From a virus: a DNA stretch of 27,063 nt. The stretch covers positions 1-27,063 of IMG/VR virus record IMGVR_UViG_3300042475_002819. The stretch is one strand, 5' to 3'. Made by a program: the position numbers and the translations under genes. A model generated the notes under the pieces. That model was not told where the DNA came from, did no database searches, and saw nothing but the letters and a program-made list of their open reading frames with translations. Of the stretch, positions 4,265 through 19,886 are shown one piece after another (positions within the stretch are counted from its first letter, which is position 1; every line of letters begins with the position of its first letter).

Positions 4265-5239
4265 ATGGCAAAGCTCCCCCCGCTCGACCACAACGACCCC
4301 GTCATCGACGCGATCAACCGCGCCCTTGAGGAGCGCCAGGAGGACACGCCCCGCGCGTACCTGGGCGCGTCAGCGATCGGCCAGTCGTGCGAGCGCAGGC
4401 TCTGGCTGGATTTCCGCTGGGCGCGCAAGCGGAGCATCGCGGCGGCGGGGCTGTGCGCGATCGACGATGGGCATCGCGGCGAGCGCATCATGGCGGATCG
4501 CCTGCGAATGGTTCCCGGCGTCAGCTTGATCACCGAGGACGAGGCCGGGAATCAGATCGGCTTCGCAGATCTCGGCGGGCACTTTCGCGGCAACGCGGAC
4601 GGTCTCATCGAGGGTCTGCCACAGGCGAAAGCGCTGCATGTCTGGGAATGTAAAATCGCCAACGAAAAGAAATTCGAGAAGTTGATCGATCTGAAAACTC
4701 GGCTTGGCGAGAAGGCTGCATTCGCGAAATGGGACGCGACCTATTACGCGCAGGCGCAGATCTACATGCATTACCTGGGCGCGCATCGGCACTACCTGAC
4801 TGTCGGCTCGCCGGGGGTGCGCCGCATGGTGACCGTGCGAACGGAATACGATGCGATGGCTGCGCTGAACTTGGTCTCGAAAGCGCAGCGCGTCATCGAG
4901 GCGCAGCGCATGCCGGTCAGCATCTCGACTGATCCGTCGTGGTACGAGTGCCGGTTCTGTCCGCATTACGACGGCTGTCACGCTGCTGATCGGAGCGCGC
5001 CGACGAGCGCGGCGTCGAACTGTCGGACGTGTCTGCACTCGACGCCGCTGATGACCGGCGGCTGGCATTGCGCGCGGTTCGAGAAGATGATCGACGTTGA
5101 AACGCAGCGCGCCGGGTGCCCTGCACATCTCTACATTCCCGACCTGATCGACGGAGAGCAGACCGACGCAGGAGACGACTGGATCGAGTACCGGCTCTTG
5201 AATGGCAAGTTCTGGTGGGACGGGAAACAGGAAGATTGA
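4265..5239 (+). CDS. PD-(D/E)XK nuclease, Cas4-like with cysteine cluster
   Basis: 324 residues from ATG 4265 (GGAGG 4-9 nt upstream). Nuclease core: GHRGE (69-73), RGNADG with D112, WECKIA with E128 and K130, and the QxxxY-type helix YYAQAQIYMHY (160-170). C42 in QSCERRLW plus C229, C232 and C238 in YECRFCPHYDGC form the one-plus-three cysteine pattern of Cas4/AddB-type iron-sulfur nucleases. A second set, C253, C256, C269 and C285, follows. It is probably a 5'-3' or 3'-5' exonuclease acting with the Sak4-like ATPase in recombination. The C-terminus WWDGKQED and stop lie in a 23-bp direct repeat that recurs at the end of the next gene, showing that the next gene was inserted here. Polarity and substrate cannot be read from sequence. 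Confidence 0.87.
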   Translation: MAKLPPLDHNDPVIDAINRALEERQEDTPRAYLGASAIGQSCERRLWLDFRWARKRSIAAAGLCAIDDGHRGERIMADRLRMVPGVSLITEDEAGNQIGFADLGGHFRGNADGLIEGLPQAKALHVWECKIANEKKFEKLIDLKTRLGEKAAFAKWDATYYAQAQIYMHYLGAHRHYLTVGSPGVRRMVTVRTEYDAMAALNLVSKAQRVIEAQRMPVSISTDPSWYECRFCPHYDGCHAADRSAPTSAASNCRTCLHSTPLMTGGWHCARFEKMIDVETQRAGCPAHLYIPDLIDGEQTDAGDDWIEYRLLNGKFWWDGKQED

Positions 5240-5247
5240 CGCGGGGG
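5225..5247 (+). repeat. Left copy of a 23-bp direct repeat flanking the inserted gene
   Basis: Starts AAACAGGAAGATTGACGCGG and ends GGG; identical to 6038-6060. It covers the end of the nuclease gene (KQED and stop) and a TTGACG box. This copy is followed by AGGCGAGACG instead of a -10, so the promoter is broken here and its G-run now serves as the SD of the next gene. Confidence 0.95.
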
Positions 5248-5257
5248 AGGCGAGACG

Positions 5258-6052
5258 ATGTCTGACACGTTCAAAACGCCAATCTTGCAGCGCATAGAGC
5301 GCGAGATACCGCATGTCGCCGGATATCTGCATGAGAGATATATCGAAGACCATCGAAATGAAGCCGAAATAATTGGCGATCTCAGGCGGCTCGTCTTGAT
5401 CGCGCTGACCGAAGACGACAAAAGGATCGACCTCGCCACTCCCATTGCCAAGGCCGTTGCCAAAGCCGTCAAGCAAACAGAGGGAACGATTAGAATGGCG
5501 TCATGGAACGCCGACATGAACCTATCCTCTGCGGAGCTAAATGAGCGAAAGGAGCGCGCGACTGCAATTCTGAAGCGGATATTCAGCGCCGACAAAGTCA
5601 CGGTGATGGAGAATTTAGACGTGACCCTGTTTCGCGAGGGCGCAATGAAGCGTCTTTGCTTTGATGGGCGTCAGCGCTTTGCGGAAGCAATAAGGCTCGT
5701 CAATAACGGCATCAGCATTGATGATCTCCCCGTCGTGTCCGAAGCCAACTACAAGACCGCCCGCGATCTCAGCGAACAAGATCGTCTCAATTTAGAGAAG
5801 AGAATTGCCGAGCTAGAAGATCGAGAAATTATGCTCGCGGACGACCTGAGAATCGAGAAGAGGCTTTCCCGCGAAGCCGCGACCGCTGCCGCCGCTGAAC
5901 GTGAGCGGCTGATCAAGCTGGCCGAGACGGCGCAGCGTCAGGCGGGCGAGGTGCAGAAGCTGCTGGCCGAGGCGAGGGCCGCGCAAAACGAAACTGAGAA
6001 GCAAGGCCTCCTGGCGAAAATGAGCGCCGCCTTGTTTAAACAGGAAGATTGA
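5258..6052 (+). CDS. Inserted, AT-richer hypothetical gene (moron-like), coiled-coil C-terminus
   Basis: 264 residues from ATG 5258. The SD GGGGGAGG (5243-5250) is made partly from the left direct repeat. No family recognised. The first 95 residues are helical with hydrophobic patches (LRRLVLIALTEDDKR). Residues about 165-255 are a long Glu/Arg/Ala-rich predicted coiled coil (LEKRIAELEDREIMLADDL and AAAAERERLIKLAETAQRQ). Composition differs sharply: 59 of 120 bases (49%) are G/C at 5281-5400, against 42 of 60 (70%) at 4381-4440 in the nuclease gene. It also uses ATA, AGA, TTA and AAT codons that its neighbours avoid. The direct repeat gives it the same KQED C-terminus as the nuclease. I infer a recently acquired gene. 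It could be a membrane-independent structural or defence protein; nothing shows which. Confidence 0.8.
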   Translation: MSDTFKTPILQRIEREIPHVAGYLHERYIEDHRNEAEIIGDLRRLVLIALTEDDKRIDLATPIAKAVAKAVKQTEGTIRMASWNADMNLSSAELNERKERATAILKRIFSADKVTVMENLDVTLFREGAMKRLCFDGRQRFAEAIRLVNNGISIDDLPVVSEANYKTARDLSEQDRLNLEKRIAELEDREIMLADDLRIEKRLSREAATAAAAERERLIKLAETAQRQAGEVQKLLAEARAAQNETEKQGLLAKMSAALFKQED

Positions 6053-6060
6053 CGCGGGGG
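6038..6060 (+). repeat. Right copy of the 23-bp direct repeat, inside an intact promoter module
   Basis: Identical to 5225-5247. Here it continues into the full palindrome and TATATA, so this copy keeps the promoter of the helicase gene. Removing one repeat plus the gene between (813 bp) would restore a nuclease gene followed directly by the helicase promoter. Confidence 0.95.
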
Positions 6061-6122
6061 CGCAGCGCCCCTATATAGATCCGGTCCTCCGGCATCCCGC
6101 TGGGGAGAGACAGGAGCTACCG
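6049..6122 (+). promoter_or_regulatory. Promoter-operator-leader module 1, upstream of the helicase
   Basis: TTGACG (6049-6054), 17-nt spacer, TATATA (6072-6077). The spacer holds GGGGCGC-A-GCGCCCC (6057-6071), a perfect 7-bp-arm palindrome abutting the -10 and a likely repressor site. The -35 overlaps the stop codon of the upstream gene. The leader has a weaker hairpin than the other modules (CTCCGGC 6087-6093 with GCTGGGG 6099-6105, two G-U pairs, loop ATCCC). The SD is AGGAG (6112-6116), 6 nt before the ATG. Confidence 0.85.
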
Positions 6123-7721
6123 ATGACCATCACCCTTCGCGACTATCAGGCTCAGGCAATCCAGTCGATCTGGACGTGGTTTTCGACCCGCGACGGCAAC
6201 CCGCTGATCGAGTTGCCGACCGGCACCGGCAAGAGCCTCGTCATCGCTGGCCTGTGCCAGCAAGTGCTGGAGCAGTACGAGGACTCGAAAATCCTAGTGG
6301 TCACCCATGTGCGCGAACTGATCGCGCAGAACTACGCAGAGCTTCTGCGGCTCTGGCCGGAAGCGTCCGCTGGCATCAACAGCGCTGGCATCGGTCGCCG
6401 CGACTTTCGCCAGAAAATCATCTTCTGCGGCATCCAGTCGGTTGCCGACCACGCGCATAAATTCGGAAAAGTCGATCTGATCTTGGTCGATGAGGCGCAC
6501 CTGATCCCGCGTGATGGGGCGACGCGCTATCAGACATTCATCAACGACCTTCGCGCCGCGAACCCGTATGCGCGCGTCATCGGCTTGACGGCGACGCCAT
6601 ATCGCCTCGACAGCGGTCGCCTCGACCAGGGCGACGACGCGCTGTTCTCGGGCACGGCATACAGCTACCCCGTCGTTCAAGCGATCAAGTCGGGCTACCT
6701 GTCGCCGCTCGTAAGCAAGGCGACCGGCATGAAGCTCGACGTTGCTGGGGTCGGTACGCGCGGCGGCGACTACATCGCTGGCGATCTGGAGCGCGCAGTC
6801 AATATCGATGCCGTCAACCGCGCCGCGATCAAGGAGGTCACCGAATTCGCCGCGCGCGACGGTCGCCGCTCCTGGCTGATCTTCGCCGCTGGCGTCGATC
6901 ACGCGCAGGCTCTCGCGGCGATCGTGCGCGAGCATGGCGTGTCGGTCGCGACGATCTTCGGTGACACCGCGAAAGCGGAGCGTGACGCGACCATCGCATC
7001 GTTCAAGCGCGGCGAGATCACCTGTCTGGTTTCGATGGGCGTGTTGACCACCGGGTTCAATGCCCCGGCGGTTGACCTCATTGCCATGCTGCGCCCGACG
7101 CAATCGACCGGCCTGTACGTCCAGATCTGCGGTCGCGGGATGCGCCTCGCGCAGGGCAAGAAGAACTGCCTCGTGCTGGACTTCGCGGGCAACATCTTGC
7201 GGCACGGCCCGATTGATGCGGTCGCGCCGAAGGGCAAGGGCAAGGGCGACGGCGAGGGCGAAGCCCCGGCGAAGGAGTGCCCTAGCTGCGGCTCGTATGT
7301 GCATGCGTCGTCGTCCGAGTGTCCAGATTGCGGTCACATTTTCCCGAAGCCCGAGCCGAAGATCGCGAGCGTCGCGGACACGTCTGCGATCTTGAGCGAC
7401 AGCACGCCGAAGTGGGTCTCGGTCACCGGCATGTCGTTCGCTCGCCATTCCAAGCTGGGCAAGCCCGACAGCCTGCGCGTCACCTACCAGACGCGCACGG
7501 CGAGCGTCTCGGAGTGGATCTGCCTGGAGCATGATGGCTACGCGCGCGATAAGGCCAAGGCATGGTGGAAGCGCCGCGCGAGCAGCGCTGCGCCGAGCAG
7601 CGTGACCGAGAGCATGAAGCGGCTGAACGAGGTCCGCCAGCCGAGCGAGATCAAGGTTCGTCAGGTTGGACGCTATTTCGAGGTGCTTGATGCGCGCGAT
7701 ATGCCCGTGCGGTCGAGGTGA
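6123..7721 (+). CDS. Superfamily 2 DEAD/DEAH helicase with C-terminal zinc ribbon
   Basis: 532 residues from ATG 6123. The Q-like motif LRDYQAQAI (5-13) precedes motif I LPTGTGKS (31-38), motif Ia VVTHVRELIAQN, motif II DEAH (123-126), motif III LTATPYR (155-161), and motif VI QICGRGMRLAQGKKN (about 335-349). This is the RAD25/UvsW-like layout common in phages. A zinc ribbon follows: C386/C389 and C400/C403 (CPSC then CPDC). After it comes a 120-residue C-terminal part without known motif. It likely unwinds or branch-migrates replication and recombination intermediates, acting with RusA and the nuclease. It has its own operator-bearing promoter, so its expression is separable from the upstream operon. 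The next gene starts inside its 3' end. Confidence 0.92.
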   Translation: MTITLRDYQAQAIQSIWTWFSTRDGNPLIELPTGTGKSLVIAGLCQQVLEQYEDSKILVVTHVRELIAQNYAELLRLWPEASAGINSAGIGRRDFRQKIIFCGIQSVADHAHKFGKVDLILVDEAHLIPRDGATRYQTFINDLRAANPYARVIGLTATPYRLDSGRLDQGDDALFSGTAYSYPVVQAIKSGYLSPLVSKATGMKLDVAGVGTRGGDYIAGDLERAVNIDAVNRAAIKEVTEFAARDGRRSWLIFAAGVDHAQALAAIVREHGVSVATIFGDTAKAERDATIASFKRGEITCLVSMGVLTTGFNAPAVDLIAMLRPTQSTGLYVQICGRGMRLAQGKKNCLVLDFAGNILRHGPIDAVAPKGKGKGDGEGEAPAKECPSCGSYVHASSSECPDCGHIFPKPEPKIASVADTSAILSDSTPKWVSVTGMSFARHSKLGKPDSLRVTYQTRTASVSEWICLEHDGYARDKAKAWWKRRASSAAPSSVTESMKRLNEVRQPSEIKVRQVGRYFEVLDARDMPVRSR

Positions 7722-8024: not shown

Positions 8025-8195
8025 ATGGATGATGATGCTTTGGCAGAGCGTCTCGCGCGCTCAGATGTTGGGGAGCGTTTCTTGGACAACGTGACGCCGC
8101 ATTTTAAGCGCCACGCCATCGAGCGATGGAAGGACACGATCAGGACGATCAGGCTCGCGGGGCTGGCGGTCGTGGAAGCGGAGGATGGACGATGA
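8025..8195 (+). CDS. Small hypothetical protein
   Basis: 56 residues. The start at 8025 (MDDDALAERLARSD) is preferred over 8010/8013 because GGAGGA (8015-8020) lies 4 nt upstream. Acidic N-terminus, then a helical segment with RWKDTIRTIRLAGLAVVEAE. No family recognised. It overlaps the next gene by ATGA (8192-8195). Confidence 0.65.
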   Translation: MDDDALAERLARSDVGERFLDNVTPHFKRHAIERWKDTIRTIRLAGLAVVEAEDGR

Positions 8196-8626
8196 CCGAG
8201 ATCAAAACGTGGCAGCAGCGGTGCATGGAGCATCCCGATCACCAGACCGGCATGGTCTCGGACGAGATGATCCGCGCCCGTATGTGCGAGGAGGCCGGGG
8301 AGTTGCGCGCCGAGCTTGAGAGGCGCACGCGCAATCATCGCAAGCTGTTGCAGGGATTGGCGCGCGGCGATTACGAAATCGTCTACGCCTCCGACGAGGG
8401 CGAGGTGGTCACGATTTTTCCCGTCGCTTTTTACGAGGACCGACACAGCGATCCCGAAGCGGACGAGCGCATTATCGACCGGATCGCGAACGACCCGCTG
8501 GCAAAGCGGGCGGACATATCGTTCCCTCAACAAGAGGGGCGAGAAGAGCAGCAGCGCAAGATCTGGCGCGCGAGGCTCGCGCAGATGCGGCGCGTGGGCA
8601 TCGTCATCTCGGAGACCGGGCGATGA
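8192..8626 (+). CDS. Hypothetical protein, copy A of a duplicated gene pair
   Basis: 144 residues. Nearly the same protein is encoded at 17129-17560: IKTWQQRC near the N-terminus, GMVSDEMIRARM, LARGDYEI in the centre, IANDPL, and IWRARLAQMRRVGIVIS at the end. Identity also holds at DNA level in blocks over 20 bp, for example around 8203-8222 and 8252-8277. Such 'WQQRCMEHPDHQ' proteins are common small phage proteins of unknown role, with a helical middle (EEAGELRAELERRT). It overlaps both neighbours by 4 nt, so it is translationally coupled in the small-gene operon. Not assignable to a function. Confidence 0.8.
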   Translation: MTEIKTWQQRCMEHPDHQTGMVSDEMIRARMCEEAGELRAELERRTRNHRKLLQGLARGDYEIVYASDEGEVVTIFPVAFYEDRHSDPEADERIIDRIANDPLAKRADISFPQQEGREEQQRKIWRARLAQMRRVGIVISETGR

Positions 8627-8856
8627 AGCAGAAATCAATCTGTGTTGGATGCGCTTACGCGAGGTGGGACCGCTACCCATCGGGTCGCCTGGATAAACAC
8701 AAGAGCGGGAAATGCACATGGACTCTGGACGCTAGACTGCCGAAGGCATTCATCTGGATTCAGACTCCAACTCCAATCGGCGGCCGGATCAACAGAAAGC
8801 GTCTATTCAACAGCGACCCAACAGCCTGCGACTTCAGAAAGGAAGAAGAGAAATGA
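8623..8856 (+). CDS. Small Cys-containing hypothetical protein
   Basis: 77 residues from ATG 8623 (ATGA overlap with the previous stop). It contains ICVGCAYARW (C7, C10), GKCTW and TACDF, so four spaced cysteines could bind one zinc, as in other small phage 'CxxC...GxCTW' proteins. It is basic overall, with a Lys/Glu tail (RKEEEK). Slightly lower GC than its neighbours. Function unknown. Confidence 0.7.
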   Translation: MKQKSICVGCAYARWDRYPSGRLDKHKSGKCTWTLDARLPKAFIWIQTPTPIGGRINRKRLFNSDPTACDFRKEEEK

Positions 8857-8936
8857 AAGAGGCATCAATCATCACGCTATGCGCGGTTGCGACCATCGTC
8901 GTCGTGACGTGCCTTGCGCTAGCGGTGCTGCGATGA
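8853..8936 (+). CDS. 27-residue single-helix membrane peptide
   Basis: The ATG at 8853 (ATGA overlap with the previous stop, AAGGAAGAAGAG upstream) opens a 28-codon frame ending at 8936: MKEASIITL, then the hydrophobic run AVATIVVVTCLALAVLR. The next gene's ATG (8933) overlaps its stop, so it sits in a continuous chain of ATGA overlaps, which is the main reason to call it real. A one-helix inner-membrane peptide, possibly antiholin-like, holin-like or a host-protein modulator. No homology can be argued at this length. Confidence 0.6.
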   Translation: MKEASIITLCAVATIVVVTCLALAVLR

Positions 8937-9127
8937 TCGGCTTTGCGTTCGCGCTCGTCGTGCTGGCGTGCCCGGTCAACGTGCCGGTCGCGGAGCGCGA
9001 CTGCGTCGCCGTCGTCGCGGAGGTCGAGACCGTCGCGGAGTGCCGAGCGCTCTACCGCGAGATCCAATCGACGATGCCCGAGGGCATGCGTCTCACGTTT
9101 CCCGAGTGCGTGAGGAGGAAGAAATGA
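8933..9127 (+). CDS. Small exported or lipoprotein-like protein
   Basis: 64 residues from ATG 8933 (overlaps the previous stop by 4 nt). MIGFAFALVVLACPV is a short hydrophobic leader with a cysteine at 13, loosely like a lipobox (VLAC). The mature part has VAERDCVAVVAEVETVAECR and FPECVRRKK, so three more cysteines, possibly disulfide-bonded in the periplasm. Paired with a membrane peptide immediately upstream. Could act in lysis or superinfection exclusion; unproven. Frame chosen because it fits the overlap chain. Confidence 0.62.
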   Translation: MIGFAFALVVLACPVNVPVAERDCVAVVAEVETVAECRALYREIQSTMPEGMRLTFPECVRRKK

Positions 9128-9258
9128 GCGAGCAGAAGAAGAAGCCGGAACCACTCAGCGTCGGCATCGACGCGCTCGAAGCCCAGGTGCGTGCGCTCAA
9201 GCGAGCCGTCGTGAAACTGCACGTTCGCAAGCCCGCACGAGACGAGCTGAATGAATAA
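9124..9258 (+). CDS. Small basic hypothetical protein
   Basis: 44 residues from ATG 9124, with GAGGAGGA upstream and a 4-nt overlap with the previous gene. The sequence is Lys/Arg-rich: MSEQKKKPEPLSVGIDALEAQ, then RALKRAVVKLHVRKP. A single amphipathic helix is likely. No family recognised. Confidence 0.6.
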   Translation: MSEQKKKPEPLSVGIDALEAQVRALKRAVVKLHVRKPARDELNE

Positions 9259-9640
9259 GCGCGGCGGCTTCATACCGGGCTGGACAGGCAGCGCTAATTG
9301 TCGCGTCCACCTCGACCATCAGCGAGAAAAGGCGACAGTCGCGTCGGCGCAGCAAAGCTGGAAGGGCGCGCGCGACGGCGTCGATCCCGCTGTGCGTCGG
9401 CTCGCGGAATTGCTGGAGCCGCACGCTGGCTATCTGCCGAGAATTTTCAAACGCGCGGGCGTCGAGCGATCGACGGTAGTAAAATGGATTCGGTGCGGGA
9501 AAGATCCGAAATTGTCGTATTTTCGCGCGACGCTGAACGCTCTAGGATACGATCTCAAAATAGTGAGGATGCGACATGCAATCGATGACGATGAGATGCC
9601 TGGAGACGCGCGCGAGGACGCTAGAGGCGATCGCGAATGA
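9251..9640 (+). CDS. Helix-turn-helix regulator (Cro/C1-like)
   Basis: 129 residues from ATG 9251, overlapping the previous gene by 8 nt. Residues about 46-104 form a HTH domain: LAELLEPHAGYLPRIFKRAG, then VERSTVVKWIRCGKDPKLSY with the recognition helix near 71-82, then TLNALGYDLKI, an ending typical of small phage or plasmid repressors. The N-terminal 45 residues are basic and unlike the family; the C-terminal tail is acidic. It lies about 110 bp upstream of promoter module 2 and is a candidate for the protein that binds the repeated GGGGCG palindromes. That link is inference. Confidence 0.75.
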   Translation: MNKRGGFIPGWTGSANCRVHLDHQREKATVASAQQSWKGARDGVDPAVRRLAELLEPHAGYLPRIFKRAGVERSTVVKWIRCGKDPKLSYFRATLNALGYDLKIVRMRHAIDDDEMPGDAREDARGDRE

Positions 9641-9751: not shown

Positions 9752-9830
9752 TTGACACGGGGGCGCGACGCCCCTATTTAGGTGCCCAGGCCCGCCACCC
9801 CGGCGGGCTGACCCTCCGATGGAGCCTCGC
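9752..9830 (+). promoter_or_regulatory. Promoter-operator-leader module 2
   Basis: TTGACA (9752-9757), 17-nt spacer, TATTTA (9775-9780). Spacer palindrome GGGGCG-CGA-CGCCCC (9760-9774). Leader hairpin GCCCGCC (9790-9796), loop ACCCC, GGCGGGC (9802-9808). CTCC-GAT-GGAG (9814-9824) could fold over the SD; ATG 6 nt later. This is the best -35 of the set. Confidence 0.9.
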
Positions 9831-11378: not shown

Positions 11379-11698
11379 GGGCCGAGGAGAAATTCGCCGA
11401 TCTTGAGTGGCGCGCGTTTCTGCGCGCGTCGCGCGCGGATCATACGCGCAATCTCTCGCGCCCCTGGTATGTCTCCGAGCGTGTCGGCGACAACTCGGCG
11501 CGCAAGCGCTGGGACCGACAGGCGCAGCGCTACGCGGACTGGTACGTCCGAAGCGCGATGCGTCTCGACGGTTACGTTCGAGAGGTCAGGCGGATCGGTA
11601 GAATCGGCGCGGTTGCGTGTGCAGTCGTCGGCGGGAAATTCAAATACATCATGCTGCCCGATCACGTCGTGCAGCCAATGTCAGGAGAGCAGAAATGA
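11375..11698 (+). CDS. Hypothetical protein with GTG start
   Basis: 107 residues. The GTG at 11375 is chosen because GGAGGA (11365-11370) lies 4 nt upstream and GTGA overlaps the previous stop; the longer frame upstream is a shadow of the previous gene. The sequence is Arg/Trp-rich (LEWRAFLRASRADHTRNLSR, RKRWDRQAQRYADWYVRSAM). It has a small hydrophobic core near 80 (IGAVACAVVGGKFKYIML). Unknown function; the charge suggests nucleic-acid contact. Confidence 0.65.
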   Translation: MRAEEKFADLEWRAFLRASRADHTRNLSRPWYVSERVGDNSARKRWDRQAQRYADWYVRSAMRLDGYVREVRRIGRIGAVACAVVGGKFKYIMLPDHVVQPMSGEQK

Positions 11699-19108: not shown

Positions 19109-19467
19109 GCGAAGAGAACAAGACGCCGCTGTACCCGCGCCCCGCGTTTCAACACGAGGACGTTGCCGTGCGATTAGAGAGCTTGCTCCGATGCGATGGC
19201 GCGACCTCGCTTGTGCGAGGCACGCGCGAAGTCCCCGCCAAGGATTTGTTCGACGCCTGCCACGAGATCAATTTCTTGCGTGAGAACCGCGCTGCGGCAT
19301 GGGAGCGCGTCGAGATCCTGCGGAAGTTCATCGTTCGATATCGAGCCATGCTCGTGAAGTGGGATGCGCTCCGGCTGCATGAGCTTGTCGGCAACGCAGA
19401 TGCGATGAAGGCTCTGAGAGAGATCGAAGAGGAAACGCGCGAGTTCCTGCATGGAGACAAGCCATGA
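19105..19467 (+). CDS. Helical protein, junction-train member 7
   Basis: 120 residues from ATG 19105; junction CTGGAGACGATGCCATGAGC. FQHEDVAVRLESLLRCDGAT, then CHEINFLRENRAAAWERVEI and a coiled end MKALREIEEETREFLHGDKP. It carries the same EIxxLR core as members 1-4. Function unknown. Confidence 0.7.
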   Translation: MSEENKTPLYPRPAFQHEDVAVRLESLLRCDGATSLVRGTREVPAKDLFDACHEINFLRENRAAAWERVEILRKFIVRYRAMLVKWDALRLHELVGNADAMKALREIEEETREFLHGDKP

Positions 19468-19886
19468 GCGACGACTGCATGAAGCGCGACATGCTGCACC
19501 AGCCGCCGGTCGAGCAGCAGCCGTACCGGCTGGCCTGGGTCGGCGTCGAGGGGCGGACCTATCTGGTCGGCGTCGCGATCGAGCAGCGGTCGGGGACGAC
19601 GAGCGACCACGAGGTGGAGGAGATCGCGCTCTACGTCGCGCAGCGGCGGCATCTGCGGGAGACCGGCACCCTGCCGCCGAGGGAGTACTCCGTCGTTTAC
19701 ATGTTCCCGGCGGGCAGCGTCCTGGGCGTCGAGCCGGGGGAGATCGACTGCCCAGCGAGCGCAGAACCACAGGTTGTGATGGCTGGCGCGCGCACAATCT
19801 CCAGGCGAGGCGACCGGATCGTGGTCTCGATTGCCCAGCCGGGGGACGCGGACGTGGACGGCGGGGATTACCTACCCCAGGACTGA
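19464..19886 (+). CDS. Hypothetical protein, last gene of the junction train
   Basis: 140 residues from ATG 19464; junction TGGAGACAAGCCATGAGC. PYRLAWVGVEGRTYLVGVAI, then IALYVAQRRHLRETGTLPP and YSVVYMFPAGSVLGV suggest a beta-rich domain with one helix; acidic end (DADVDGGDYLPQD). No coiled core and no KP ending, so it differs from the other members. No family recognised. Followed by a 776-bp non-coding region. Confidence 0.7.
   Translation: MSDDCMKRDMLHQPPVEQQPYRLAWVGVEGRTYLVGVAIEQRSGTTSDHEVEEIALYVAQRRHLRETGTLPPREYSVVYMFPAGSVLGVEPGEIDCPASAEPQVVMAGARTISRRGDRIVVSIAQPGDADVDGGDYLPQD

Follow-up and report, generated by a model that had tools for sequence, protein, structure and literature searches.

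An orphan gene between 23-bp direct repeats at a viral nuclease–helicase junction, probably gained once in an ancestor

Several systems have been described in which additional genes separate neighbours that are adjacent in related genomes. A moron is such an extra gene, and in the typical case it has a promoter and a terminator of its own (PMC3029335). Mycobacteriophage LRRHood contains a 1.35-kb extra segment (genes 43-46) surrounded by 29-bp direct repeats that are single in its relatives, one copy lying where the upstream gene ends and the other ahead of the downstream gene (PMC3029335). Gene 68 of mycobacteriophage Island3 is an inserted orphan; through a repeat of ~50 bp, its 18 C-terminal residues are similar to the end of the upstream gene's product, and a relative, Brujita, is without the gene; the direction of the change, gain or loss, is left open in that account (PMC3029335). 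In T4-type phages, promoter early stem-loop cassettes (PeSLs; Arbiol 2010 and Comeau 2014, cited in PMC4503421) are promoter modules that mediate shuffling.

Herein we analysed one entire virus record (IMGVR_UViG_3300042475_002819, 27,063 bases, hereafter the window), in which an orphan gene, X, separates a nuclease gene from a helicase gene. The features of the junction are:

4265..5239, + strand: Cas4-type exonuclease gene, 324 aa, the upstream neighbour (PHROG 1990, Cas4-domain exonuclease, E 3e-67)
5225..5247, + strand: left 23-bp copy, holding the last codons and stop of the nuclease, a TTGAC without a -10, and a G-run; identical to the left copy in the relative L003
5258..6052, + strand: inserted orphan gene X, 264 aa, whose product, in a low-confidence structure model, is largely helical and carries a coiled-coil-like helix at its C-terminus; it has no family matches
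6038..6060, + strand: right 23-bp copy, holding the last codons and stop of X (KQED) and the -35 of the helicase module; the right copy in L003 differs at 3 of 23 bases
6049..6122, + strand: complete promoter-like helicase module, with TTGAC, a GC-rich palindrome in the spacer, TATATAGAT, a leader hairpin and a Shine-Dalgarno (SD) sequence; it recurs in the window
6123..7721, + strand: RadD/DEAD-type helicase gene, 532 aa, the downstream neighbour (PHROG 16, DNA helicase, E 8e-102; its score against NF053632 RadD lies under that model's cut-off)

The insertion of X is of the LRRHood and Island3 kind, with a repeat standing twice around an extra gene and once in relatives where the site is empty. 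The LRRHood segment differs in comprising four genes, including a known repressor, and the account of it, as excerpted, does not mention a promoter module. As in Island3, X is an orphan, and the repeat gives it a C-terminus that agrees with that of the upstream gene, although the Island3 repeat is ~50 bp long, similar rather than exact, and gene 68 has an 85-aa product. X had been called a moron in a preliminary description of the locus, and the name fits in so far as X sits between genes that neighbour each other in related phages and deviates from the genome in composition. Typical morons, as described, have their own promoter and terminator, but no intact promoter immediately precedes X, and we therefore call it moron-like and not a classic moron. 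The recurrence of promoter-plus-hairpin modules where gene content turns over resembles the PeSLs; unlike the PeSLs, turnover among the window's relatives is generally not at the modules (one of five differences, a small sample).

A pattern spanning the helicase leader matched L003 (equivalent to L130, L065 and L186; IMG/VR contig 3300045999_009590, IMGVR_UViG_3300045999_009590), L004 (equivalent to L169 and L185; 3300042860_002991), L005 (3300044646_000818), L006 (3300036719_002315) and the more distant L007 (3300035663_000746), and nothing else. In L004, L005 and L006 (~91% DNA identity to the window, and mutually 100% identical in the genes compared) the site is empty, with the nuclease stop, one module and the helicase following consecutively, and it is likewise empty in the outgroup L007 (~72% DNA identity). 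The window's flanks, joined without the insert and one repeat copy, align gap-free to L004, which bears out the earlier statement that this deletion rebuilds the order nuclease stop, promoter, helicase; the empty site that had been proposed as a check in related phages does exist. L003 carries X at the same site (88% amino-acid identity to the window's X) and is the only relative with X among the nuclease–helicase loci that were fetched. A search of IMG/VR with the 23-bp repeat pattern returned, among the matches listed, mostly unrelated contigs. Farther afield, the gap between nuclease and helicase in distant relatives ranges from -53 to 4232 bases (an overlap or other genes), and thus the junction accepts different genes; one annotated phage relative that was examined has two genes there, annotated as a transposase and an HNH endonuclease. 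Many distant relatives (among L008-L033) carry a gene of ~60-70 codons (…ILKALDxYAY…) at this junction, with no sequence kinship to X.

The repeat (AAACAGGAAGATTGACGCGGGGG) is present in exact copies at 5225-5247 and 6038-6060, as had been described, and at no other site in the 27,063-base record at up to three mismatches. It ranks third by length among the exact direct repeats of the window, and 60 first-order Markov simulations yielded repeats of at most 18 bp, against the 23 bp observed. The earlier assignment of the two copies also holds: the left one combines the stop of the nuclease ORF (4265-5239) with a module that has no -10, AGGCGAGACGATG lying downstream of it, and the right one combines the stop of the X ORF (5258-6052) with a complete module, running on into CGCAGCGCCCCTATATAGAT. 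Translation confirms that the nuclease and X both end in KQED, as both genes cross the repeat in the same frame, and the last residues and stop codon of X come from the right copy. The ATG of X lies 18 bases beyond the nuclease stop, and the G-run of the left copy (GGGGGAGG, ten bases 5' of the ATG) is probably its ribosome-binding site. No promoter-like site was found directly upstream of X, and a terminator-like match lies at 6012-6029 (four such matches, where shuffled sequence gave a mean of 1.3, sd 1.4). In alleles that lack X, the TTGAC of the helicase module shares bases with the nuclease stop (GAT TGA C); the repeat spans this overlap, and its duplication therefore leaves both neighbours intact. 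Had X been inserted without the duplication, either the nuclease end or the promoter would suffer damage.

Modules like that of the helicase recur at 9752, 12616, 13397, 14102 and 15063, giving at least six with the one at 6049; each has the TTGAC, a spacer taken up by a GC-rich palindrome, TATNTAGAT and a leader hairpin. Although its sequence varies among copies and relatives, the palindrome keeps most of its symmetry (as in AGGGTCATGGTGACCCT of L130), which suggests that a dimeric DNA-binding regulator acts on several genes. A sigma-70 consensus scan of 5100-6200 called zero promoters, and the earlier label "promoter" therefore rests on the recurrence and position of the module. A module-leader pattern searched in IMG/VR gave zero matches.

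X departs from its surroundings in composition. Its codon usage is the poorest fit among the 18 window genes tested, in agreement with the atypical codons reported earlier, and its GC content is 55%, against 63% in the nuclease, 64% in the helicase and 64% overall, while GC3 is 0.65 against 0.80-0.83 in the neighbours. The earlier count of 59 G or C among the 120 bases at 5281-5400 is correct; the contrast drawn there with about 70% GC next door is true locally but too steep for the genes as wholes. X is thus an outlier but has company, because some small genes (8623-8856 and 9251-9640) have similarly low GC3. We found no homologues of X in phage and plasmid records, in GTDB genomes (peptide-word scan) or elsewhere in IMG/VR, so that X is known from one site only, and no family matches in Pfam, NCBIfam or PADLOC. 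A single coiled-coil match in PHROGs was at chance level, and PDB returned only coiled coils, at E 0.2 or worse. The structure model has a mean pLDDT of 55, with values above 70 only at residues about 170-260, and a long C-terminal helix. Since no relative of X was present in the databases searched, the case for a foreign origin, which we regard as probable, rests on composition and the empty alleles.

To place the event in time we compared the occupied and empty alleles. The maximum-likelihood tree groups the window with L003 (bootstrap 86%), and these two have 82 derived sites in common, against 54 and 43 for the two alternative groupings; one gain of X in their shared ancestor is thus the simplest history. 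Between the window and L003, dS is 0.249 for X, 0.222 for the nuclease and 0.263 for the helicase, and dN/dS for X is 0.22, which indicates purifying selection. With a dS like that of its neighbours and this dN/dS, X has been resident long enough for selection to have kept it. The preliminary description was hence right that X was acquired, as the empty sites and foreign-looking codons indicate, but the acquisition was not recent, X being common to L003 with a dS that matches the flanks. Reading the exact repeats as the mark of a young event is unsafe, since the right copy of L003 carries its three changes; the identity of the two copies in the window is a matter of chance, constraint or conversion.

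We consider a single ancestral gain of moron type, in which an orphan gene with foreign codons was joined into the nuclease–helicase junction with a 23-bp duplication, to be the best reading, at a probability of roughly three in four. On this account, the gene would have entered the junction while a 23-bp stretch, containing the overlap of nuclease stop and helicase -35, became duplicated. The left copy would close the nuclease, its G-run probably serving translation of X, and the right copy would close X in frame with KQED and a stop, so that the helicase promoter stays whole; X would be transcribed by read-through from the nuclease. Illegitimate joining may have produced the structure, through two unequal events that perhaps involved two copies of a replicating genome, with selection retaining the product in which both neighbours were intact. 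The 23-bp duplication could alternatively have been made by an enzyme supplied in trans.

The same alleles could have arisen by loss, if X were older and recombination between the repeats had removed it from the empty close relatives. Such recombination would yield precisely the empty structure, with the junction restored exactly, and the three-lineage split is shallow, with only 86% support for the grouping. X is nevertheless absent from the site in the outgroup L007 and in more distant relatives, its codon usage is foreign, and an extra step is needed, which leaves loss unlikely, if the least so among the alternatives; a gain followed by loss in the empty lineage is a further possible history, the simplest being one gain.

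The preliminary description had gone further and taken the recurrent modules to be general insertion points. X could in that case have arrived as a cassette with its own module copy, recombined through module homology, the left module later losing its -10 and leader. The window does hold at least six occurrences of the module, and the left copy runs into a leader-like GGGGGAGGCGAGACGATG, which resembles the G-rich leader ends of other modules. Against this, 11 of the 23 repeat bases (AAACAGGAAGA) are the 3' coding end of the nuclease and are found at no other module. Gene content was also compared among the window, L130 and L169, a small sample. The window gene 8192-8626 is missing at that place from both relatives, 11379-11698 is missing from L130 and present in L169, L169 has an additional gene at about 8968-9353, and a block is replaced (L169 3181-5386 versus window 8846-9620). 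All four differences fall at start/stop overlaps, at ribosome-binding sites or within genes and none at a module, so that X itself is the only one of five at a module. With this count and the nuclease's own share of the repeat, a general role of the modules as insertion points is unsupported in this small sample, and we regard the cassette route as distinctly improbable. The genes at 8192-8626 and 17129-17560 are two versions of a single gene that have diverged (DNA identity 72%, flanks included), and the absence of the former from its place in L130 and L169 suggests that it was duplicated and inserted where start and stop codons overlap. At 17853-19485, near-identical start sequences (GGAGGCCAAGCCATGAGCGA) precede at least five consecutive small genes, forming a repeated translation-start element.

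A mobile element that lacks a transposase of its own, is moved in trans and leaves a 23-bp target-site duplication would account for the exact duplication around a 790-bp insert and for the gap-free joining of the flanks. Terminal inverted repeats are absent, though, X occurs at a single site, and the target copy encodes its last four residues and its stop, an arrangement that an independent element would not require; we give this very little credence. The right junction coincides with the exact centre of a palindrome (TGTTT|AAACA at window 6038), which extends in L130, at 7312, to a perfect 14 bp (CCTGTTT|AAACAGG, one of two such in 12.6 kb). This position is not predicted by random joining and is a counter-point to it; the palindrome may have arisen by chance or may reflect joining guided by a hairpin. 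It would be bolder to propose a dedicated transposase-free process of hairpin-guided gene capture at compact stop/promoter overlaps, in which ~23 bp are duplicated and the insert end is the inverted complement of the target start, and we hold this to be the most speculative suggestion of all. We reject a transposon with a target-site duplication, as the insert ends share only an offset 5-bp inverted match and no transposase was recognisable in the 790-bp insert in Pfam, PHROGs and NCBIfam searches.

Read as a single ancestral gain, the locus, represented by empty, occupied and outgroup alleles, is a clear case from nature of a phage gaining an orphan gene while tightly overlapping neighbours are spared: the overlap of stop codon and promoter is duplicated, and one function is retained per copy. 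It also illustrates that atypical composition together with exact repeats need not signal a recent event, because X has been kept by selection through considerable divergence.
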